From Candidatus Omnitrophota bacterium (GTDB lineage: Bacteria; Ratteibacteria; UBA8468; B48-G9; JAFGKM01), in NCBI GenBank assembly GCA_023819375.1, contig JAMWDI010000006.1, positions 1-35,729 of the forward strand: DNA of 35,729 nt, in the 5' to 3' direction. A program made the translations under genes and the position numbers. This document shows positions 129 through 29,240 of the stretch, piece by piece (the stretch's first letter is position 1; each line of letters opens with the position of its first letter). Under the pieces are notes generated by a model. It searched no databases. It was not told the origin of the DNA and worked only from the letters and a program-made list of their open reading frames with translations.

Positions 129-1220
129 ATGGATGAGAGGTTTTTTCGTGTACCTTCTGGTTGTGGTGTTTGCGGAATTATGTCAAAAAATGGGCAACTT
201 TTTTCTGGAGAAAAGATTGTTAAATCTATGTGTAATATGATTGAGAGAGGAAATGGTCTTGGCTCTGGCTTTGCAGGATATGGAATATATCCTGAATTTC
301 ATGATAATTGGTGTTTTCATGTAATGTATAATTCTAAAAAAAACATTGAGATTGTTGAAAAGTATCTAAAAGAAAGTTTTGATATAATCCACTCAGAGCC
401 AATTCCAACAAAAAATGGAAAAAAGTTTAAATTTGTACCAATTCTTCATAGATACTTTTTAAAAATAAAACAAGAGAAATTCAATAATAAAATGGATGAT
501 TTTTCTGAAGATGACCTTATTGTAAATGCAGTTATGTTTATAAATAGAAATATAGAAGATGCTTTTATTTTCTCTTCTGGAAAAAATATGGGCATATTTA
601 AAGGAGTTGGAAATCCAGATGAAATTGGAGATTTTTATAAAATTTATGAGTATAAAGGATACTTATGGACAGCCCATAATAGATTTCCAACAAATACAGT
701 AGCATGGTGGGGTGGAGCACATCCTTTTGGCATCCTTGATTGGGCAGTTGTTCATAATGGAGAAATTTCAAGTTATGGAATAAATAGGAGATACCTTGAA
801 AATTTTGGTTATTACTGTACACTTTTTACAGATACAGAAGTTATTACATATTTATTTGACTTGCTTCACAGGAAACATAAAATTGATTTTGAAACTATTG
901 GAAAGATTCTTGCATCTCCATTTTGGTTTCAAATTGATAGAATTAAAGATGAAAATTACAAAAATTATTTAAAAATGCTGAGGATTATTTATGGCCCTGC
1001 ACTTATTAATGGACCTTTTGCAATAATAGTTACAAATTCTGAATATATGATTGGTTTGAATGATAGGATAAAATTAAGGCCACTTGTTGCTGGCGAAGAT
1101 GAAAATTTTTATTATTTATCATCAGAGGAAGCAGCAATAAGGATAATAAATAATAATTTAAAGGTATATCAAGTTGATGCAGGAAAACCATTTATATTTA
1201 AAGTAAAATGGCAAAGTTAA
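129..1220 (+). CDS. Glutamate synthase, glutamine amidotransferase (GltB1-type) subunit
   Basis: A 363-residue stand-alone class II (Ntn-hydrolase) glutaminase domain. It corresponds to the N-terminal domain of bacterial GltB and to the separate subunit of archaeal-type glutamate synthase. It should release ammonia from glutamine for transfer to 2-oxoglutarate. The motif SGCGVCGIM lies at residues 10-18. By alignment with the CGI.GI start of the family the nucleophile is most likely Cys12, exposed by removal of an 11-residue propeptide; Cys15 is a less likely alternative. RFPTNT, GAHPFG and VVHNGEIS near residues 184-214 and TDTEV near 235 are further family motifs. The gene starts 1 base after glnA with no clear Shine-Dalgarno, so translational coupling is likely. 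Its 3' end overlaps the next gene by 13 bases. Confidence 0.88.
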   Translation: MDERFFRVPSGCGVCGIMSKNGQLFSGEKIVKSMCNMIERGNGLGSGFAGYGIYPEFHDNWCFHVMYNSKKNIEIVEKYLKESFDIIHSEPIPTKNGKKFKFVPILHRYFLKIKQEKFNNKMDDFSEDDLIVNAVMFINRNIEDAFIFSSGKNMGIFKGVGNPDEIGDFYKIYEYKGYLWTAHNRFPTNTVAWWGGAHPFGILDWAVVHNGEISSYGINRRYLENFGYYCTLFTDTEVITYLFDLLHRKHKIDFETIGKILASPFWFQIDRIKDENYKNYLKMLRIIYGPALINGPFAIIVTNSEYMIGLNDRIKLRPLVAGEDENFYYLSSEEAAIRIINNNLKVYQVDAGKPFIFKVKWQS

Positions 1221-2728
1221 AGAGAATAAAGGAATTTATTGTTGAAAGAGATAATGAAAAATGTATTCAATGTCAAGCGTGTGTTCGTATGTGTTCCAAT
1301 GATGTCCATATTTATGATTCAGAGGGAAATGTAGTAAAAAGTGATAGTTCTAAATGTGTTGGATGCCATTTTTGTGAAAATATATGTCCAACAGAAGCAA
1401 TAGTGATAAAAAGAAGTTTTTATGAAATAAGAAAGAATTACCATTGGGAAAAGGAATATGTTATAGATATTCAAAAACAAGCAGAAGCAGGTGGTGTAAT
1501 TTTAACAGGAATGGGATGTGATAAAAGGTATAAAAATTACTTTGACCATATTTTGCTAAATGCTTCTCAAGTGACAAATCCCTCAATTGATCCATTAAGA
1601 GAACCAATGGAATTAAAGACTTTTATAGGAAGAAAACCTGATAGAATTGAATATAAGGTTGAAAATGGAAAGGTGAGTTTGAAAACAAAAATTCCACCAT
1701 TGCTTGAACTTGAAACACCAATTATGTTTTCTGCAATGAGTTTTGGTTCAATATCTTTAAATGCTATAAAATCAATCGCAAAAGCCGCATGTGAGTTTGG
1801 AACTTATTGGAATACAGGAGAAGGAGGATTACCTGAAGAATTATATCCGTATGCAGATAGATGTATTGTTCAGGTTGCAAGTGGAAGATTTGGTGTAAAT
1901 ATTGAATATTTTGAAAAAGCAAGTGCAATTGAAATAAAAATAGGGCAGGGTGCTAAACCAGGGATAGGAGGCCATTTGCCTGGAGAAAAAGTTACAGAAG
2001 AAATAAGTAAAACAAGAATGATACCCGAAGGAACCGATGCTATATCTCCTGCACCTCATCATGATATTTACTCAATTGAAGATTTAAAACAGTTAATATA
2101 TGCTTTAAAAGAAGCAACAGAATACAAGAAACCTGTTGGTGTTAAAATTGCTGCTGTTCATAATGTCGCTCCAATTGCTTGTGGAATAGTTAGAGCAGGA
2201 GCAGATTTTGTAGTAATTGATGGAATAAGAGGTGGGACTGGAGCAGCACCAAAAATAATAAGAGATAATGTTGGTATTCCTATTGAAATAGCAATTGCAG
2301 TTGTTGATCAAAGATTGAGGGAAGAAGGAATAAGAAATTGTGCCTCTATAATCGCAGCGGGTGGTTTTAGAAAGAGTTCAGATGTAATAAAGGCAATTGC
2401 TCTTGGCGCAGATGCTGTTTATATTGGAACTGCTGCATTAATTGCTCTTGGTTGCCATTTGTGTCAAAAATGTTATACAGGAAAATGTAATTGGGGAATA
2501 GCAACACAGGATCCATATCTAACAAAGAGATTAAATCCAGAAATAGGTGCCAGAAGGCTTTATAACCTTTTAAGAGCGTGGTCTCTTGAGATAAAAGAGA
2601 TGCTTGGCGGAATGGGAATAAATGCAATTGAATCCTTAAGAGGAAATAGAGAACAATTGAGAGGCATTGAATTAAATGAAATAGAACTAAAATTACTTGG
2701 GATTAAACATATAGGTGAAGCATGGTAA
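1208..2728 (+). CDS. Glutamate synthase, Fe-S and FMN-binding synthase subunit (GltB2-type)
   Basis: A 506-residue central synthase subunit. Residues 19-60 hold two [4Fe-4S] ferredoxin motifs (C19-C22-C25-C29 and C50-C53-C56-C60-P). The rest is the FMN-binding (beta/alpha)8 glutamate synthase domain, with GQGAKPGIGGHLPG, SPAPHHDIYSIEDL and GGTGAAP. Cys416, Cys422 and Cys427 have the C-x5-C-x4-C spacing of the [3Fe-4S] site of GltB; an extra Cys419 lies inside it. It condenses 2-oxoglutarate with ammonia and reduces the product to glutamate, fed by electrons from its own ferredoxin clusters. It overlaps the amidotransferase gene by 13 bases and the following ferredoxin gene by 7, so all are probably translated together. 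This arrangement is typical of archaea and anaerobic bacteria. The electron donor, reduced ferredoxin or NAD(P)H through the flavoprotein at 3176, is not settled by sequence. Confidence 0.93.
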   Translation: MAKLKRIKEFIVERDNEKCIQCQACVRMCSNDVHIYDSEGNVVKSDSSKCVGCHFCENICPTEAIVIKRSFYEIRKNYHWEKEYVIDIQKQAEAGGVILTGMGCDKRYKNYFDHILLNASQVTNPSIDPLREPMELKTFIGRKPDRIEYKVENGKVSLKTKIPPLLELETPIMFSAMSFGSISLNAIKSIAKAACEFGTYWNTGEGGLPEELYPYADRCIVQVASGRFGVNIEYFEKASAIEIKIGQGAKPGIGGHLPGEKVTEEISKTRMIPEGTDAISPAPHHDIYSIEDLKQLIYALKEATEYKKPVGVKIAAVHNVAPIACGIVRAGADFVVIDGIRGGTGAAPKIIRDNVGIPIEIAIAVVDQRLREEGIRNCASIIAAGGFRKSSDVIKAIALGADAVYIGTAALIALGCHLCQKCYTGKCNWGIATQDPYLTKRLNPEIGARRLYNLLRAWSLEIKEMLGGMGINAIESLRGNREQLRGIELNEIELKLLGIKHIGEAW

Positions 2729-3186
2729 GGAGAATTTTGATAAGAGAAGAATATTGTATGGGATGTAGATTGTGTGAAATTTTTTGTATAACTGAACATT
2801 CAAAAACAAAAGATATAATAAAAACATTCAAGGGAAGTGAACCAAAACCTATATCAGGAATATATTTTGAAGAAATTGACTATATTTCGTTTGCTATACA
2901 ATGTAGACATTGTGAAGATGCACCATGTGTTGAAAGTTGTTTGACTGGAGCAATGTATAGAGACGAAAAAACAGGTGCAGTTTTACATAAGAAAGAAAAA
3001 TGTATTGGTTGTTGGATGTGTGTTATGGTATGTCCTTTAGGTGTTATCAAAATTGATTTAGAGAATAAAAAAGTTGCTTCAAAATGTGACTTATGTATAG
3101 AAAGTGGGTTTCCTGCATGTGTTAAAAATTGTCCAAATGAAGCAATAATCCTTGTCAACGAGAAAGGAGAAAGGATTGAAGAATAA
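2722..3186 (+). CDS. Four-cluster [4Fe-4S] ferredoxin-type electron transfer subunit
   Basis: A 154-residue protein with sixteen cysteines in four groups: CMGCRLCEIFC near residues 12-22, CRHCEDAPCVESC, CIGCWMCVMVCP, and CDLCIESGFPACVKNCP. This is the HycB/CooF/DMSO-reductase-subunit-B type of polyferredoxin. It has no signal peptide, so it should act in the cytoplasm. Its place between the FMN synthase subunit and a flavoprotein suggests that it carries electrons between them. An AGGTGA Shine-Dalgarno (2713-2718) precedes the ATG at 2722, which lies inside the end of the upstream gene. The next gene begins inside this one. The subunit is not part of the classical GltBD enzyme, so its precise partner is an inference from gene order. 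Confidence 0.87.
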   Translation: MVRRILIREEYCMGCRLCEIFCITEHSKTKDIIKTFKGSEPKPISGIYFEEIDYISFAIQCRHCEDAPCVESCLTGAMYRDEKTGAVLHKKEKCIGCWMCVMVCPLGVIKIDLENKKVASKCDLCIESGFPACVKNCPNEAIILVNEKGERIEE

Positions 3187-4468
3187 GAGATATATAATTG
3201 TTGGAAATTCAATTGCAGGTGTTAGTTGTATAGAAGGAATAAGAAAAATTGATAAAAATGGAGAAATTTGTGTATTTTCTGATGAGGAATATTTTAATTA
3301 TTCAAGACCACTAATTTCCTATTATTTAGCAGGTAGTCTTAAAGAAAATCAATTGAACTTTAAAGATAAGCAGTTTTATAAGAGTAATAAAGTGAAGTTA
3401 TTTTTAAATACAAAATGTGAAAAAATTGATTTTAAAAGAAAAATTTTGTATACAAAATCTGGAAACTTTGAATTTGACTATTTATTTCTGGGAACAGGTG
3501 GGAAACCTATAATTCCAAAAATAAAAGGAATTGAAAATGTTAAAGAAGGAATATTTACATTTATGAAATTAAAAGATGTGAAAAAATTAAAAAAATATAT
3601 AGAGAAAGAAAAGAAGGTTAAGAATGTAACAATTCTTGGAGGGGGATTAATAGGGCTTAAATGCGCAGAAGGCCTTTTGGGTAGAAATATCCCTTTGGTG
3701 ATTGTAGAACTTGCTGATAGACTTCTTCCAAATACCTTTGATTTTATAGCATCTGAAATAATAGAAAATAAACTTAAAGAAAAAAATTGTGAAATAATTA
3801 AAAAAAATACAATAGAAAAAATTATTAGCAAAGATGGAATATTAAAAGAAGTAATATTGAAAGATGGTAAAAAGATAAAAACAGATATTTTGATAATAGC
3901 GGTTGGAGTATATCCTAATACAGAACTCATAGAGGGAACAGAGATAGAGAAAAATAAGGGTATAATAGTTGATGAGTTTATGAGAACAAATATTAATTTT
4001 GTTTTTGCAGGTGGAGATGTATGTGAATCAAAAGAATTTGATAATAATAGGTCTGTTATTGCAATATGGCCAAGAGCAAGTAGACAGGGTAAAATAGCAG
4101 GAATTAATATGGCAGGTGGAGAAAAGAAATATGAAGGAATGTTTTTAATGAATTCTGTTGAGTTAATAGGAATTCCAACAATATCTTTTGGTATAACGAA
4201 CCCTGAAAATGAAAAAGAATATGAGATATTGAAAAAGATTGATTATGAAAAGAAAATATATAAAAAAATTGTAATTAAAGAAAATAAAATTGTCGGTGGA
4301 ATTTTTCTTAGAGATATTGAAAGAGCAGGAATAATAATAGGTTTAACCAAAAATAAAGTTGATGTCCAAGTTATTAAAAAATCTTTAATTAATGATAAAT
4401 TTGGGCTACTTTATCTTCCAGAGAATTATAGAAAACATATTGTAAAAGGAGAGGGAATTGAAGTATGA
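3176..4468 (+). CDS. FAD/NAD(P)-dependent oxidoreductase of the glutamate synthase operon
   Basis: About 430 residues of the pyridine nucleotide-disulfide oxidoreductase fold (NADH oxidase / rubredoxin reductase / nitrite reductase-like). An FAD-binding Rossmann motif, YIIVGNSIAGVSC, is right at the N-terminus. An NAD(P)-binding GGGLIG motif lies mid-protein, and the second FAD motif TNINFVFAGGDV near residue 275. I chose the TTG at 3176 because AAAGGAG (3164-3169) precedes it at good spacing. A TTG at 3152 would add eight residues without a comparable ribosome site. The gene overlaps the ferredoxin gene upstream and shares ATGA (4465-4468) with the next one. It probably passes NAD(P)H electrons to the synthase through the ferredoxin, replacing the small GltD subunit. 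This role is inferred from context; the family itself is broad. Confidence 0.85.
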   Translation: MKNKRYIIVGNSIAGVSCIEGIRKIDKNGEICVFSDEEYFNYSRPLISYYLAGSLKENQLNFKDKQFYKSNKVKLFLNTKCEKIDFKRKILYTKSGNFEFDYLFLGTGGKPIIPKIKGIENVKEGIFTFMKLKDVKKLKKYIEKEKKVKNVTILGGGLIGLKCAEGLLGRNIPLVIVELADRLLPNTFDFIASEIIENKLKEKNCEIIKKNTIEKIISKDGILKEVILKDGKKIKTDILIIAVGVYPNTELIEGTEIEKNKGIIVDEFMRTNINFVFAGGDVCESKEFDNNRSVIAIWPRASRQGKIAGINMAGGEKKYEGMFLMNSVELIGIPTISFGITNPENEKEYEILKKIDYEKKIYKKIVIKENKIVGGIFLRDIERAGIIIGLTKNKVDVQVIKKSLINDKFGLLYLPENYRKHIVKGEGIEV

Positions 4469-5202
4469 ATGAAATAAAAATAGATGCCTATAGTTTACAT
4501 TACAAGGTTTTAAATGAAAAAATAAGAGAATTGGTAAAAAGTGGTTATAAAAAAATTTATATTGAAAATGTACTTGGACAAAGGTATATCGCTGCTGGAC
4601 TGAAAGAAAAAGGAGTTGAAATTTATATAGATGGTATCCCTGGTAATGACCTTGCTTGTTTTATGGATGGAGCCAAAATTTTTGTAAATGGCAATTGTCA
4701 AGATGGAGTTGGAAATACAATGAATTCAGGAGAAATAATAATAAATGGAAATACAGGTGATATAACAGGTCATTCAATGAGGGGTGGGGAAATTTATATA
4801 AAAGGAAACGTTGGATATAGGGTTGGAATACATATGAAAGCGTATAAAAATTTATATCCAGTTATAGTCATTGGTGGAACTGCAGGGGATTTTCTTGGAG
4901 AATATATGGCAGGTGGTTTAATTATAATTTTAAATTTAGAAAAGAAAGATAAAGTTGTTGGCCACCTTATAGGAACAGGTATGCATGGAGGAGAGATTTT
5001 TATAAGAGGAAAAGTTGGTGATACTATAGGAAAAGAGGTTAAAATATTTAAAGCAGAAAAAGATGAAATTAGAAGAATAAAAAAATACATTGAAAAATTT
5101 TGCAATTATTTTAACAATGAATTAGAAAAAATTATCTCAGATGAATTTATAAAATTGATACCTATTTCAAAGAGACCTTATGGTAAAATATATATTTATT
5201 AG
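4465..5202 (+). CDS. Glutamate synthase GXGXG-domain subunit (GltB3-type)
   Basis: A 245-residue protein with the right-handed beta-helix domain found at the C-terminus of bacterial GltB, in FwdC and in FmdC. The repeating glycine pattern is clear between residues about 65 and 180: FVNGNCQDGVGNTMNSGEI, IINGNTGDITGHSMRGGEI, YIKGNVGYRVGIHMK, IVIGGTAGDFLGEYMAGG. In GltB this domain is structural and helps hold the ammonia channel. It starts inside the stop of the oxidoreductase gene (ATGA overlap), so the two are translationally coupled. With the genes upstream it completes a glutamate synthase in which every domain is a separate polypeptide. The final 60 residues are lysine-rich and match no motif I recognise. 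Confidence 0.87.
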   Translation: MNEIKIDAYSLHYKVLNEKIRELVKSGYKKIYIENVLGQRYIAAGLKEKGVEIYIDGIPGNDLACFMDGAKIFVNGNCQDGVGNTMNSGEIIINGNTGDITGHSMRGGEIYIKGNVGYRVGIHMKAYKNLYPVIVIGGTAGDFLGEYMAGGLIIILNLEKKDKVVGHLIGTGMHGGEIFIRGKVGDTIGKEVKIFKAEKDEIRRIKKYIEKFCNYFNNELEKIISDEFIKLIPISKRPYGKIYIY

Positions 5203-8943: not shown

Positions 8944-9657
8944 TTATGAAGAACTTGTTTCAAAAAATTTTGAAAGAAAAATAGAAATTTCGTAAAGAAA
9001 AATTAATGGAATTGCAACAAAAGTTTGAGTAAAAATATCAGTTGTTGGAGTAATTAAAGCAGAAAGGATAAAAGAACCCAAAATTGCGAATTTCCTTTTT
9101 TCCTTTAAGAATTTGGATTTTACAAGTCCTATAGAAGCAAGTGAAGAAATAAAAACAGGCAAATTAAAAATAAAACCCATTGCAATTAAAAAAATAAAGA
9201 GGAAATTCAAATAACTATTAATGGAAATGAATGGCTTTATAATTCCTTTACCAAAAGAAAATAAAACACGTAAACCAAAAGGAATAATTATATAAAAAGC
9301 AAAAGACAATCCCAAAAGAAATAAAAAAGGGAAAAATATAAATAGGGTTTTGGCAATTTTTTTTTCTTTTTCTGTTAGACCTGGAGAAATAAATAAATAA
9401 ACTTGAATTAAAAAAAATGGCATTGTAAAAATGCTACCTGTAAAAGCACAAATTTTTAAAATAGATATGAATGGTTCAACAGGTTTTATAAAAACTGGTT
9501 GTTGTTGATATTTTTTGAGTGGATTTATAATATATAAAAGAATTTTATCTGAAAAAAAATAAGAAAAGATTAAACAAATAAGAAAAAAAGAGATTACATA
9601 AATAATTCTCTTCCTTAATTCTTCAAGATGTTCAATAAAACTTAAATCTTTTTCCAT
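8944..9657 (-). CDS. tatC: Sec-independent protein translocase TatC
   Basis: A 237-residue polytopic membrane protein, the receptor subunit of the twin-arginine translocase that recognises Tat signal peptides of folded proteins. The cytoplasmic N-terminus carries FIEHLEELRKR at residues 7-17, the most diagnostic TatC motif. About six membrane segments follow, at roughly 18-36, 64-90, 103-125, 147-170, 190-203 and 211-228. SPGLTEKE (91-98) and the TPTTD segment (203-207) correspond to conserved loops. Its start codon overlaps the tatA stop by one base (TAATG), giving translational coupling. It is the last gene of a minus-strand operon whose other products are probable Tat cargo. Confidence 0.94.
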   Translation of the reverse strand: MEKDLSFIEHLEELRKRIIYVISFFLICLIFSYFFSDKILLYIINPLKKYQQQPVFIKPVEPFISILKICAFTGSIFTMPFFLIQVYLFISPGLTEKEKKIAKTLFIFFPFLFLLGLSFAFYIIIPFGLRVLFSFGKGIIKPFISINSYLNFLFIFLIAMGFIFNLPVFISSLASIGLVKSKFLKEKRKFAILGSFILSALITPTTDIFTQTFVAIPLIFLYEISIFLSKFFETSSS

Positions 9658-9830
9658 TATTCTTCTTTTTCTTCTTTACTTTCCTCAGATGTTCCCTCTT
9701 TCATGCCTTTTTTAAATTCTCCAAGTGCTTTTCCAAGCGCTCTTCCAATCTCAGGAAGTCTTTTAGCACCAAAAAGTAATAAGATTATAAAAAATATAAG
9801 GATAAGTTCAGGGGCTCCTATATTAAACAT
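9657..9830 (-). CDS. tatA: Sec-independent protein translocase TatA
   Basis: A small 57-residue gene in the gap between tatC and the ferredoxin gene. The product begins [20 protein letters not shown], a short periplasmic N-terminus and one membrane helix. The conserved hinge [20 protein letters not shown] (20-39) and an acidic, glutamate-rich tail follow. This is a textbook TatA/TatE protein, which forms the oligomeric pore element of the Tat system. An AGGAGGG Shine-Dalgarno lies just before the ATG. Its start overlaps the ferredoxin stop (ATGTTTAA), and its stop overlaps the tatC start. No separate TatB is present here, as in minimal TatAC systems. Confidence 0.94.
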
Positions 9831-10407
9831 TTTCCCTCCTTTTTAATTTTTTTCTTTTTACGTCAATAATTTTGACTTTTATAGCAGATTCACCTATAAC
9901 AGGGCAATTTTGTTCACATTGTCCACAACCAACACATATTTTTTTATCTACAACAGGTTTTCCATTTATATTTTTATATACTGCTCCAACAGGACAAACT
10001 TCCATACAAACAAAACAAACTTTGTTTTCTAACCACACAAGACATTTTTTAGGATCAATTTCTGCATTTCCCATTTTAAATTCATTAAATTTTACATTTT
10101 CTATCGCACCTGTTGGACATACTTTTCCACATTCAAGGCATAAAATACATCCTTTTTCTCTTGGAATTATGTAAGGAGTTCCCCATTCAAGTATTCCTTT
10201 GTTTATTGGAACTGGTTTAAGACACTTTGTTGGACAGATTTTCACACATTTTCCACATCTTATACACATGTAAATAAAAAAATCTTCTTCAATAGCACCA
10301 GGTGGTCTTATAAACTGATTTTTTGGAGAAATTTTTATTTTATTTTTTCTTAAAAATAATAACCATCCCCCTACTCCAATAAATTTTAAAAATTCTTTTC
10401 TTTTCAT
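9823..10407 (-). CDS. NapG/MauM-like ferredoxin with four [4Fe-4S] clusters, probable Tat substrate
   Basis: A 194-residue protein. Residues 1-20 ([20 protein letters not shown]) look like a Tat-type signal or anchor in which the second arginine of the twin pair is lysine. After it comes [20 protein letters not shown], characteristic of the NapG/MauM family. Cluster cysteines are C48-C51-C54-C58, C87-C90-C93-C97, C122-C131-C134-C138 and C158-C161-C164-C168. In nitrate respiration NapG works with the membrane protein NapH to move quinol electrons to a periplasmic enzyme. Here the NapH-like gene lies directly upstream (4-base overlap), but no NapA-like or methylamine dehydrogenase gene is present, so the terminal acceptor is unknown. 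It overlaps tatA by 8 bases. Export by the neighbouring Tat system is inferred. Confidence 0.87.
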
Positions 10408-11009
10408 CTTTTTAATTTTTTTATTTTATTTCTTAATTTTACCCCTATCAGATAATTTAAATAACCAAGAGGACATATATTATTGCACCAGAATCTCGGA
10501 ATTAAAATGCTTATGAAAATGATAAGCAAAAAAACCAATAACATTTTTTTAAATACTAAGGATCTCGTAATAATAACAAAAGGATCAAAAATCCAGAATA
10601 AAAAAGGTATTTTAACAAAATTTGAAATTAATGCTGTTAAAAGAATTCCAGAGAAAATAAGGATTTTTATTTTATGTAAAAAAATAGGATTTTTGATACG
10701 AATTTTCCATTTTTTTCTTAATAAAAGAATATTTGTAATATCAATAATTCCACCAACTGGGCATAACCAGTAACAGAAAAAATTGCCAAAGAGTATAAGC
10801 ATAAATAGTATAAAGAGAGATGGTAAAAGTAAAATTGAAAAATAGAGAGTTGATAGAGTTGTAAAGACTGTCATAAGAATATCCATTCTGAAAAACAAAT
10901 TTACAGGTAATTTTTCTGAAATGCCAAAACTGGTTTTTTTAAAAAAATAAAAGAACAAAAATATAAAAAATAACTGAGAAAAATATCTTTTTGTGAAGTT
11001 TTTATACAT
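10404..11009 (-). CDS. NapH/MauN-like membrane iron-sulfur protein
   Basis: A 201-residue membrane protein with about four to five hydrophobic segments, near residues 11-23, 45-78, 112-130, 134-150 and 155-172. It has two C-x3-C-P motifs, C79YWLC83P and C175NNIC179P, the signature of the NapH/MauN/CcoG-related quinol-oxidising family. It is shorter than classical NapH (about 280 residues) and lacks the C-terminal ferredoxin motif. The clusters could come from the NapG-like protein encoded directly downstream with an ATGA-type overlap. The pair should take electrons from the quinone pool at the cytoplasmic membrane. It overlaps the upstream DUF362 gene by 8 bases. Confidence 0.8.
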   Translation of the reverse strand: MYKNFTKRYFSQLFFIFLFFYFFKKTSFGISEKLPVNLFFRMDILMTVFTTLSTLYFSILLLPSLFILFMLILFGNFFCYWLCPVGGIIDITNILLLRKKWKIRIKNPIFLHKIKILIFSGILLTALISNFVKIPFLFWIFDPFVIITRSLVFKKMLLVFLLIIFISILIPRFWCNNICPLGYLNYLIGVKLRNKIKKLKR

Positions 11010-11895
11010 ATTTTATCTTTATTTTACTTAAATCCATTACTCCAAGGCCCATTTCTGCTGCATATCTTATGTGAGGAACCTGTTCAGGTTTTTTGTTTAA
11101 TAATGTAGTTCCATATGCATCAAGAGCAACTATATCTGTTCCACCTATAACCATATTCAATTCTTTTAATTCTCCCGGACCTTGAGGTCCTCTTGTTAAC
11201 ATAACTTTAATAGCATCAAGAATTATCAATTTGGTTTTAGGTAAAATATATTTTGTTATTTCAGCAATACATTTATGTAAATCAGTTCTATGGAAATATC
11301 CTCTATCTTTAACGATACCCATAAAATTTTTCATTGCTATTGTTACAACTCCGCCACTATGGACTTTTACAACTGGAACATCTATTAAGATATCACATTC
11401 ATAAACTTCTTTCAAAATTTCTGCTTCTTTTAAAACTTCACCTCCAATATTTACTGTAATCCATTCAACAGGAGGTTTCATTATTCCTCCTTCTCTTTCT
11501 ACAACTTCTTTTATTCCACTGACTGTATATGTTACATTCCAGGGATTGACCGGATTATCCATAACTATAATTTCTTTTGCACCTGCTTTTTTACATAATT
11601 TAACAATTGTGGCAACAACTTCTGGATTGGTATTGGCACATTGGTCAGGAGTTCTATTCCAGGCAATATTAGGTTTTATGACAACTTTATTTCCTCTTTT
11701 TACAAATTTACTAATCCCACCCATTGCTTCAATAACTTTTGTTGTAATTTCTGCAATATTTAAACCTTTTGCGGCATAGATTTCACTTTCCTTCTCTTCT
11801 GCAAAAGAGATGTTTTTGTTGTTCTTAAATAAATTTGATAAACTTAGACTTGTTAAAAACAAAAAACTTTTTTTAATAAATTCTCTTCTTTTCAT
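11002..11895 (-). CDS. DUF362 protein with twin-arginine signal
   Basis: A 297-residue protein. The N-terminus MKRREFIKKSFLFLTSLSLS has an R-R-x-F-x-K-K pattern followed by a hydrophobic stretch, a good Tat signal peptide. The mature part is a DUF362 domain: VIKPNIAWNRTPDQCANTNP near residues 71-91, PVVKVHSGGVVTIAMKNFMG near 172-192, and LDAYGTTLLN near 260. DUF362 proteins often accompany ferredoxins or have them fused; their reaction is not established. Here the iron-sulfur partners are separate genes downstream. It is the first gene of the Tat operon and probably supplies exported cargo for the TatAC encoded at its end. A GGAG ribosome site precedes the ATG. No cluster cysteines of its own are visible. 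Confidence 0.87.
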   Translation of the reverse strand: MKRREFIKKSFLFLTSLSLSNLFKNNKNISFAEEKESEIYAAKGLNIAEITTKVIEAMGGISKFVKRGNKVVIKPNIAWNRTPDQCANTNPEVVATIVKLCKKAGAKEIIVMDNPVNPWNVTYTVSGIKEVVEREGGIMKPPVEWITVNIGGEVLKEAEILKEVYECDILIDVPVVKVHSGGVVTIAMKNFMGIVKDRGYFHRTDLHKCIAEITKYILPKTKLIILDAIKVMLTRGPQGPGELKELNMVIGGTDIVALDAYGTTLLNKKPEQVPHIRYAAEMGLGVMDLSKIKIKYV

Positions 11896-17901: not shown

Positions 17902-17958
17902 GATTTGCCAAAAACAAAAAATTCAAGTAAAATTTGAAAAATAAAAGAGGAGGTGTAT

Positions 17959-18909
17959 ATGAATTTAATAGATACAATAAAGGGTTCTCTTCTTGAAAAT
18001 TTCTTTCCAAAAGGATGGGATCTTGAAAAAATTGAGAAATGTTGTTCTTATCCTCCTGAAAAAATTACAGAAAGGCAACCTTGGTGGCACAAAGATTTTA
18101 TTCCTGTTCCTTGTGATACATTAGAAGAATTCAATGTCAAAATGGGACATGAAATTGCTTATGAAATATGTTCTGCAAAAGAAGAAGGAAGAAATATAAT
18201 TTTGATTTTACCTGTTGGCCCAATGGGAATGTACAAATGGACTGTTTATTTTTTGAAAGAATGGAATATTGATTGTAAACATGTTTGGGGATTTAATATG
18301 GACGAATGGAGTGATAAAGATGGAAATACATTGCCTCCTGATAATCCTGGGGCTTTTCAGAATGCAATGGAAAATGCTTTTTATGGACCTCTTGGAGATT
18401 TGACAGTCCCAAAGAATCAAAGATTTTTTGCAACAAAAGAATTATTACCGACATATCCACAAAGGATTAGAGAATTGAAGGAGAAAGGTGCAAAATTAGT
18501 TGTTATATTTGGTATTGGTAGAGTTTTTCATATTGCTTTCTGGGAACCACATTTTGCAGAAGAATTTAGTTCAGAAGAAGAATGGAAAAAGCAAGAATAT
18601 CGTCTTGGTGCCAAATTACATCCTTTAACAATTGAGCAAAATGCAATAACAAGTTTCAAAAGTAGAACTACTCTTGTCCCATGTTTTGCAAATACAATTG
18701 GCCCTGGAATATTTTTAAAAGCAGATAAAATTATTGGTGGGGCCGATGGAACTCTTGGAAGAGGAATGATGTGGCAGGGAATGAGTTTATGGGTTACTTT
18801 AAGATATGGACCTGATATATGGGTTCCAAGCAGTTTTATGCCTACTTTACCAGGAAAACTATTTTTCTTAAAAGAACTTGCAGGTCCACTCATTCCAGAG
18901 TGTAATTAA
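17959..18909 (+). CDS. NagB-family (glucosamine-6-phosphate isomerase-like) protein
   Basis: A 316-residue protein of the NagB/RpiA/6-phosphogluconolactonase-like fold. The motif FNMDEW at residues 112-117 equals the NMDEY of glucosamine-6-phosphate deaminase, so Asp115 corresponds to the catalytic Asp72 of E. coli Nag[15 protein letters not shown] (184-197) equals the GxGNDGHIAFNEP motif: His191 and Glu196 are kept, but the aspartate (E. coli Asp141) is replaced by Val189 and its neighbours are changed. The reaction is therefore uncertain, though a sugar phosphate is likely. I chose the ATG at 17959, 5 bases after GAGGAGG, over a GTG at 17953 that overlaps that ribosome site. An isomerase gene follows after 1 base. 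Confidence 0.82.
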
Positions 18910-28493: not shown

Positions 28494-28844
28494 TTAAATT
28501 TCAATATAATCTTCTTTTATAAAATTTTTATACTGATTTTCATATTCTTCATTTGTAACAAGATGGATTTGAAATGGGCTTCCAAATGGTTTTAATTTTA
28601 ATTTAATAAATCTTCTATCTTCCCAGTTTTTGGGTAAATTGTCTGAAATCACCAAGATATCTATATCACTTAAAAATGGATGGTATAAATTTTTAATAAC
28701 TGAACCAAAAATCAGTACTTTTACATTCTTTAATAATTTTTCTGCTTTTTTTTTAATTTCAGCAGTAAATTTAATGTAATCTTTAAAATACTTTTCTCTT
28801 TCTTGGGAAATCTCTTTAAGAATTGAAATATGTGTTTTATTCAT
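28494..28844 (-). CDS. Minimal nucleotidyltransferase (MNT) domain protein
   Basis: A 116-residue protein of the DNA polymerase beta-like minimal nucleotidyltransferase family. The core signature is LIFGSVIKN at residues 44-52 and SDIDILVIS at 59-67, giving Gly47-Ser48 and the metal-binding Asp60 and Asp62. The position where many members have the third carboxylate reads FQIHLVT (91-97), so that residue may be histidine here, as I recall for some archaeal-type members; this reduces certainty about activity. The gene starts 3 bases after a HEPN gene. HEPN/MNT pairs form type VII toxin-antitoxin systems in which the MNT adenylylates or neutralises the HEPN partner. Being at the end of a housekeeping operon, it may also have a regulatory role. 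Confidence 0.84.
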   Translation of the reverse strand: MNKTHISILKEISQEREKYFKDYIKFTAEIKKKAEKLLKNVKVLIFGSVIKNLYHPFLSDIDILVISDNLPKNWEDRRFIKLKLKPFGSPFQIHLVTNEEYENQYKNFIKEDYIEI

Positions 28845-28847
28845 TTT

Positions 28848-29240
28848 CTATAAACTTTCTCCTATTAATTTTTTAATTAAATTTAAAAATTCCTCACAAT
28901 TTTTTATTATACTTTTAATCAAATTTTCACTAAATTTTTTATCAAAATATCTTGATGTAAAATAAGCGTCTTCTAAATCACTAAAAAATATTTCATTTTC
29001 CTTATAGAATTTTAAAAATTCTTCACAGTCATAAACATCTGCCAATTCTTTTATAAGTTCATAAAAATAATGTGTTTTAGGCCAGTCACCCACTTTTAAA
29101 CCTATCAAGTATTTTATAAAAAGTTGTATTGCTTGTTCAAAGTCAAAAGCAGCAAGATTAAATCTTTTCTTTTCTAAATCTTCAAAACCCCTTTCCCAAA
29201 ATTCTCTTGCTCTTTCTTTTAAAAAACTGAATGTCTTCAT
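28848..29240 (-). CDS. HEPN domain protein
   Basis: A 130-residue all-helical protein. FLKERAREFWERGFEDLEKK, AAFDFEQAIQLFIKYLIGLK and a central THYFYELIKEL segment fit the archaeal/bacterial HEPN pattern (A..f.eQA.ql.lK..l....G..p.tH....L). DAYFTSRYF at about residues 92-100 equals the conserved third-helix segment. A clear R-x4-6-H ribonuclease motif is not visible, so it may belong to a HEPN subgroup without that activity. The paired minimal nucleotidyltransferase gene follows 3 bases downstream, the usual layout of HEPN/MNT modules. The gene lies 14 bases after a phosphohexomutase gene with no visible promoter between. Confidence 0.83.
   Translation of the reverse strand: MKTFSFLKERAREFWERGFEDLEKKRFNLAAFDFEQAIQLFIKYLIGLKVGDWPKTHYFYELIKELADVYDCEEFLKFYKENEIFFSDLEDAYFTSRYFDKKFSENLIKSIIKNCEEFLNLIKKLIGESL

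Follow-up and report, generated by a model that had tools for sequence, protein, structure and literature searches.

The 35,729-nucleotide window analysed here (G000:C13:1-35729, where G000 is the source genome and other G and L numbers denote relative genomes and loci) belongs to a 94% complete genome of 1.73 Mb in 13 contigs, whose nearest named relatives are metagenome-assembled genomes labelled Candidatus Omnitrophota. At positions 8944-11895 it carries five overlapping genes on the minus strand that an earlier note, made from the letters alone, had described as a self-contained operon of redox proteins encoded with their own twin-arginine (Tat) translocase. That description was accurate as to coordinates, strand and the N-termini of both putative cargo proteins, and the Pfam matches all exceed their cut-offs. 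The first gene (11002..11895) encodes a DUF362 protein of 297 residues (PF04015, 166.7 bits, cut-off 24) with a Tat-type N-terminus and a predicted fold resembling the N-terminal domain of LarA. It is followed by a NapH-like membrane protein of 201 residues with two CX3CP motifs (10404..11009; Fer4_5, 58 bits, cut-off 22), a NapG-like ferredoxin of 194 residues with an RPPG motif (9823..10407; Fer4_7, 62.9 bits, cut-off 27), tatA (57 residues, 9657..9830; TatA_B_E PF02416, 80.5 bits, cut-off 21) and tatC (237 residues, 8944..9657; TatC PF00902, 202.3 bits, cut-off 25.1; TIGR00945, 182 against a cut-off of 132.7). From DUF362 toward tatC, successive neighbours overlap by 8, 4, 8 and 1 bp. We speak of NapG-like and NapH-like proteins because both score below the cut-offs of the corresponding NCBIfam equivalog models (107 bits against 269 for NapG, 52 against 234 for NapH).

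Tat-type signals were called by pattern and alignment, from an N-terminal motif plus a hydrophobic stretch. The DUF362 protein starts with KRREFIKK, in which the RRxFLK-like motif RREFIK (11872..11889, minus strand) is followed by a hydrophobic stretch. When orthologues from a wide range of phyla were aligned, 36 of the 37 had an R-R or R-K start of this type and the remaining one K-R. In some of them (L014, L020, L021) a lipobox-like sequence comes after the motif, and these proteins are apparently Tat lipoproteins, to judge by their sequences. The translated NapG-like frame begins with the R-K variant KRKEFLKF (10381..10404, minus strand). Since its nearest relatives (L002, L004, L005, L006) have R-R at this place, the alignment indicates that the R-K start is a local change. 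The suggestion that both proteins bear Tat-like signals is borne out by motifs conserved across relatives, clearly for DUF362 and more tentatively for the NapG-like protein of this genome. In the loci L008, L009, L011 and L053 both DUF362 and NapG have R-K, which looks like a joint drift of the signals and their translocase in this sub-clade; L010 also has R-K on DUF362, with its NapG off the contig. Genome-wide, RRxF[FILM]K gave 50 raw matches, and the one in DUF362 alone heads a long open reading frame with a signal-like stretch, in a search whose strict pattern leaves room for substrates with looser motifs.

The arrangement is conserved. We assembled 57 loci with related DUF362 genes and searched the source genome and 60 relatives whole. 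Within the lineage, the order DUF362-NapH-NapG-TatA-TatC was found wherever the contig was long enough. The DUF362 subfamily is present in 15 of the 35 genomes of the class, and TatC accompanies it in 15/15, against 6/20 genomes without it (Fisher p 2e-5, uncorrected for phylogeny). In 11 of them a single contig holds both DUF362 and TatC, some 2 kb from each other, so the adjacency pointed out in the earlier note is not unique to this genome; in three more the operon is split at contig ends. In the source genome itself the searches found a single TatC and a single member of the TatA/B family, which make up its only detected tat locus, of minimal TatAC type with no separate TatB in the genome-wide search. 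This sole detected locus adjoins its putative cargo; the note had asked about a second tat locus, and none was detected.

It could be argued that tatAC, being the only tat locus, sits behind DUF362-NapHG through inherited linkage that is functionally meaningless. Gene order is heritable, and some relatives have TatC elsewhere without DUF362 (L074, L075, L079, L080). Several observations speak against this explanation, which we consider unlikely: the reading frames overlap, TatC is kept in every genome of the class that has this DUF362 and absent from 14 of the 20 that do not, and no second strict RRxF[FILM]K substrate was found in the source genome. Also, the DUF362 proteins of operons with separate NapH and NapG are monophyletic (support 100/98), while a Lentisphaeria locus on a separate branch (L018) has TatA-TatC directly ahead of DUF362-NapHG. 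Because of this, the linkage of tat to DUF362-NapHG seems, in the tree and gene orders at hand, to have arisen more than once. The preservation of order and signals across the class argues against a chance assembly.

The two partner proteins have conserved metal-site cysteines. In the NapH-like protein C79, C83, C175 and C179, which form the two CX3CP motifs, are invariant in 12 sequences, and the NapG-like protein has 17 invariant cysteines, enough for four [4Fe-4S] sites, beside its RPPG motif. These traits are shared with the NapG/NapH menaquinol dehydrogenase of E. coli and Wolinella, in which a NapG with a Tat-type signal, four [4Fe-4S] sites and RPPG works with a NapH membrane module bearing two CX3CP motifs. 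The operon described here differs in having DUF362 as a fixed partner and its own tatAC, in containing no NapA (the operon being the extent of that check), and in a NapH-like chain that stops roughly 20 residues beyond its second CX3CP motif: the C-terminal cytoplasmic pair of [4Fe-4S] clusters is absent from all 12 aligned split NapH proteins. In the two CX3CP motifs and the missing C-terminal Fe-S domain this chain resembles RdhC/PceC of organohalide respiration (PMC5928378), which differs by an FMN domain and a proposed role in serving reductive dehalogenases.

In other phyla (loci among L013-L051; Armatimonadota, Gemmatimonadota, Hydrogenedentota, Bacteroidota, Spirochaetes, Planctomycetes and others) one gene for a NapH-NapG fusion comes after this type of DUF362 gene. 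The fusions hold a 2x[4Fe-4S] segment between their halves that the split NapH of this lineage lacks, and most of those inspected have an RR-type motif ahead of the last transmembrane segment. Clustering of neighbourhoods in these phyla found no widely kept gene besides DUF362 and NapHG. Two planctomycete fusions (L035:2736-5201 and L039:886-3897) add a DUF6599 domain, and L039 a YceI domain too, a possible clue to a periplasmic ligand. An AlphaFold2 (AF2) model of a fused NapH-NapG was poor, with a predicted local distance difference test (pLDDT) score of 59, and was not used.

A member of this NapH-NapG polyferredoxin (PFD) family has been shown experimentally to depend on both Sec and Tat (Tooke 2017, PMC5449189); the portions of that paper considered here give neither its function nor a DUF362 partner. 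As described there, PFD has the same domains, the same NapH-then-NapG layout and, like most of the DUF362-linked fusions, an internal RR-type motif; it differs from the operon at 8944-11895 in being one chain with the RR before TM5, where the operon has two genes. The idea that the operon represents an undescribed system survives in part. The NapH-NapG fusion that accompanies DUF362 in other phyla has an architecture already known to be Sec/Tat-dependent, whereas our literature search found no paper naming DUF362 as the partner of the polyferredoxin.

Where would the electrons come from? The note had proposed quinol, a proposal that fares poorly in this lineage. No UbiA-type prenyltransferase (PF01040) was found in the 94% complete source genome, although all 14 control genomes have one, nor was MqnA/D (PF02621); UbiA was likewise not found in 14 of the 15 operon-bearing genomes of the class. 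With no quinone-prenylation genes detected, and with a NapH that lacks the cytoplasmic Fe-S domain, a quinol route in this lineage is doubtful. The want of prenylation genes also leads us to regard as quite improbable here the view that the operon encodes a standard quinol dehydrogenase of the NapGH type which supplies a periplasmic reductase, DUF362 being either that reductase or an assembly factor. What favours this view is the RPPG motif and four cluster sites of the NapG-like protein, the CX3CP motifs of the NapH-like protein, and the oxidation of menaquinol by NapGH of Wolinella and E. coli, as cited in PMC5449189 and PMC5928378. For phyla that do have quinones it may yet be correct. The wider proposal of the note, a redox path serving the DUF362 protein, is supported by the data presented here.

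A clue to what the DUF362 protein may do comes from its predicted fold. Neither phmmer nor hmmsearch found a relative among the sequences of the Protein Data Bank, and it was fold comparison alone that revealed one. An AF2 model (pLDDT 90.9) was grouped by both Foldseek and VIA-align with malate/lactate racemases; in VIA-align it matches Mar2 (7s91) with Z 19.0 over 203 residues at 2.7 Å, and the next unrelated fold reaches Z 5.8. Among viral structures, Foldseek returned no match below 0.001. The match is consistent with the placement of DUF362 and LarA in one Pfam clan, CL0471 (PMC11770544). Within the modelled domain, H179 (11359..11361), K189 (11329..11331) and H202 (11290..11292), all on the minus strand, form an H-x9-K-x12-H pattern that is invariant in 37/37 aligned DUF362 proteins and similar in spacing to H174, K184 and H200 of LarA, the numbering of which we checked. 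The first two are candidate equivalents of H174 and of K184, the covalent tether of the nickel-pincer nucleotide (NPN) cofactor, with K189 at H+10 as in LarA; hhalign puts both in register with their counterparts in an alignment that is itself insignificant (E 0.064). H202, which hhalign does not place, is a candidate equivalent of the nickel ligand H200. The second histidine stands at K+13 here, at K+15 and K+16 in the two other DUF362 proteins of the source genome, and at K+16 in LarA. The H-x9-K...H pattern recurs in 10 further diverse DUF362 proteins, those two included, and a naive placement test, made post hoc, puts the chance of such a triad at about 6e-4.

The resemblance to LarA and Mar2 (DUF2088) extends to the predicted N-domain fold, the similar H/K/H spacing and the clan, and stops there: the DUF362 protein has no significant sequence match to them, is predicted to be exported and is paired with a ferredoxin. 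No histidine besides 179 and 202 is invariant among the 37, which leaves no equivalent of LarA H108; KPNxxW stands where LarA has the DxTR of D72/R75; and the chain ends after the N-domain, without the C-terminal domain of LarA. The DUF362 protein is not a LarA; it has the same predicted fold, and perhaps the cofactor site as well. Searching the literature for DUF362, PF04015 and COG2006, we found no functional study. Parallels exist within the source genome, in two cytoplasmic DUF362-ferredoxin fusions (L128, L129) that share the H/K/H triad and the coupling to [4Fe-4S] clusters, and differ from the protein in the window by having no Tat signal and a fused ferredoxin in place of a separate NapG. 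An rnfC-like gene, named by eye, lies one gene away from L128.

Taken together, we find it somewhat more probable than its contrary that the five genes constitute one exported redox module, in which a periplasmic oxidoreductase of the LarA fold is wired through NapGH. The DUF362 protein would fold in the cytoplasm, where it probably gains a cofactor, and the TatAC encoded alongside would carry it folded over the membrane. In the periplasm it may act on a small molecule, and the putatively Tat-targeted NapG-like protein, with its four putative [4Fe-4S] clusters, would form a complex with it and relay electrons between it and the NapH-like protein. These electrons are probably not derived from quinol in this lineage, and we infer that a cytoplasmic carrier of low potential is the likelier exchange partner. 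The module could be seen as the exported counterpart of the cytoplasmic DUF362-ferredoxin fusions.

Some observations weigh against this proposal. With no quinone evident and no cytoplasmic Fe-S domain on NapH, the module has no obvious point of entry for electrons, though a quinone may be salvaged or made by a pathway outside PF01040/PF02621. Six genomes of the class keep TatC without this DUF362. In G004, TatC lies on another contig, in a different context, and UbiA is present; mis-binning possibly explains this odd placement.

The same proposal can be stated with its cofactor named, at some cost in likelihood. In this form the DUF362 protein is an NPN enzyme: LarB, LarE and LarC would make the cofactor in the cytoplasm, K189 would tether it and H202 would hold the nickel, Tat would export the loaded protein, and NapGH would oxidise or reduce the NPN, giving net redox chemistry in place of racemisation. 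We take this to be possible, and on present evidence still doubtful. Beyond the fold, the common clan and the invariant triad, it draws on the distribution of LarC. The source genome has its own larC, the gene for the nickel insertase of the pincer cofactor, just past the end of the window (C13:36648-37790; L167:3649-4791), above both NCBIfam LarC cut-offs and directly upstream of valS, a neighbourhood repeated in L170 and L172-L174. LarC occurs in 38 of 48 carriers of the DUF362 subfamily, whereas among the background relatives the figure is 9 of 26 (p 3e-4, in a test that, like the others on LarC, ignores phylogeny, treats genomes that are not independent and uses a background unmatched for lineage). 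Within the family it is found in 7/8 operon-bearing genomes, counting G007, where the DUF362 end of the operon is off the contig, against 0/8 others, five of which are a single genus. The presence of LarC goes more closely with the operon (p 0.004) than with LarA (p 0.2), and the operon-bearing G001, G002 and G004 have LarC without any detected LarA. The literature, for its part, expects NPN proteins that are still to be identified: in roughly 15% of the genomes surveyed larB, larE and larC are present and larA is not, and cyanobacteria likely use NPN in a protein of this kind (PMC11796402). Among our control genomes, Synechococcus elongatus and Haloferax volcanii scored for DUF362 and LarC and not for LarA, a pattern that matches this open question in cyanobacteria.

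Against it stand the 10 carriers in which LarC is missing, including a coherent group of Bacteroidales (L024, L027-L029) and the 94% complete G008, all with an intact triad; Bacteroides ihuae, too, has DUF362 without LarC. Conversely, the control genomes of Corynebacterium glutamicum and Methanocaldococcus jannaschii have LarC with neither DUF362 nor LarA. The lack of H108, D72/R75 and the C-terminal domain, together with the insignificant profile comparison, points the same way. Also, the source genome encodes a LarA homologue (C2:146559) that retains all the site residues, H108 and the entire triad among them, and LarC could be serving this protein; larB and larE are not beside larC in this clade, as judged from the neighbourhood and with no genome-wide search for LarB or LarE. 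Possibly, then, the DUF362 module includes one of the missing NPN proteins, and use of NPN by DUF362 is a minority prospect in our estimation. The broader claim, that DUF362 is a second family of NPN proteins, among those missing from larBCE genomes without larA, exported in its holo form by the adjoining Tat and wired to NapGH for net redox chemistry outside the cytoplasm, we put forward a little more tentatively.

Few other features of the locus and its surroundings call for comment. The upstream PPDK gene is kept in the clade, but its distance of 830 bp excludes it from the module. Promoter-like sites occur as often in shuffled sequence or more often, and the Rfam scan matched a tRNA alone. 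Elsewhere in the window, glutamate-synthase-like functions are spread across five adjoining genes at 129-5202 on the plus strand (GATase_2, ferredoxin plus Glu_synthase, Fer4_11, Pyr_redox_2 and GXGXG); a nucleotidyltransferase and HEPN pair at 28494-29240 on the minus strand resembles the MNT/HEPN type of toxin-antitoxin; and a divergent NagB-like protein (42 bits, no Pfam match) is encoded at 17953-18909 on the plus strand, beside a xylose-isomerase-like gene.

DUF362, a large family to which no reaction has been assigned, is a candidate for a missing NPN protein that can be tested by existing larBCE co-expression. The operon also supplies the orphan NapH-NapG polyferredoxins with a candidate partner, and is a compact example of translocase and cargo being encoded together, found in a lineage seemingly devoid of quinones. 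If the NPN reading were true, it would reveal an NPN enzyme performing net redox chemistry outside the cytoplasm.

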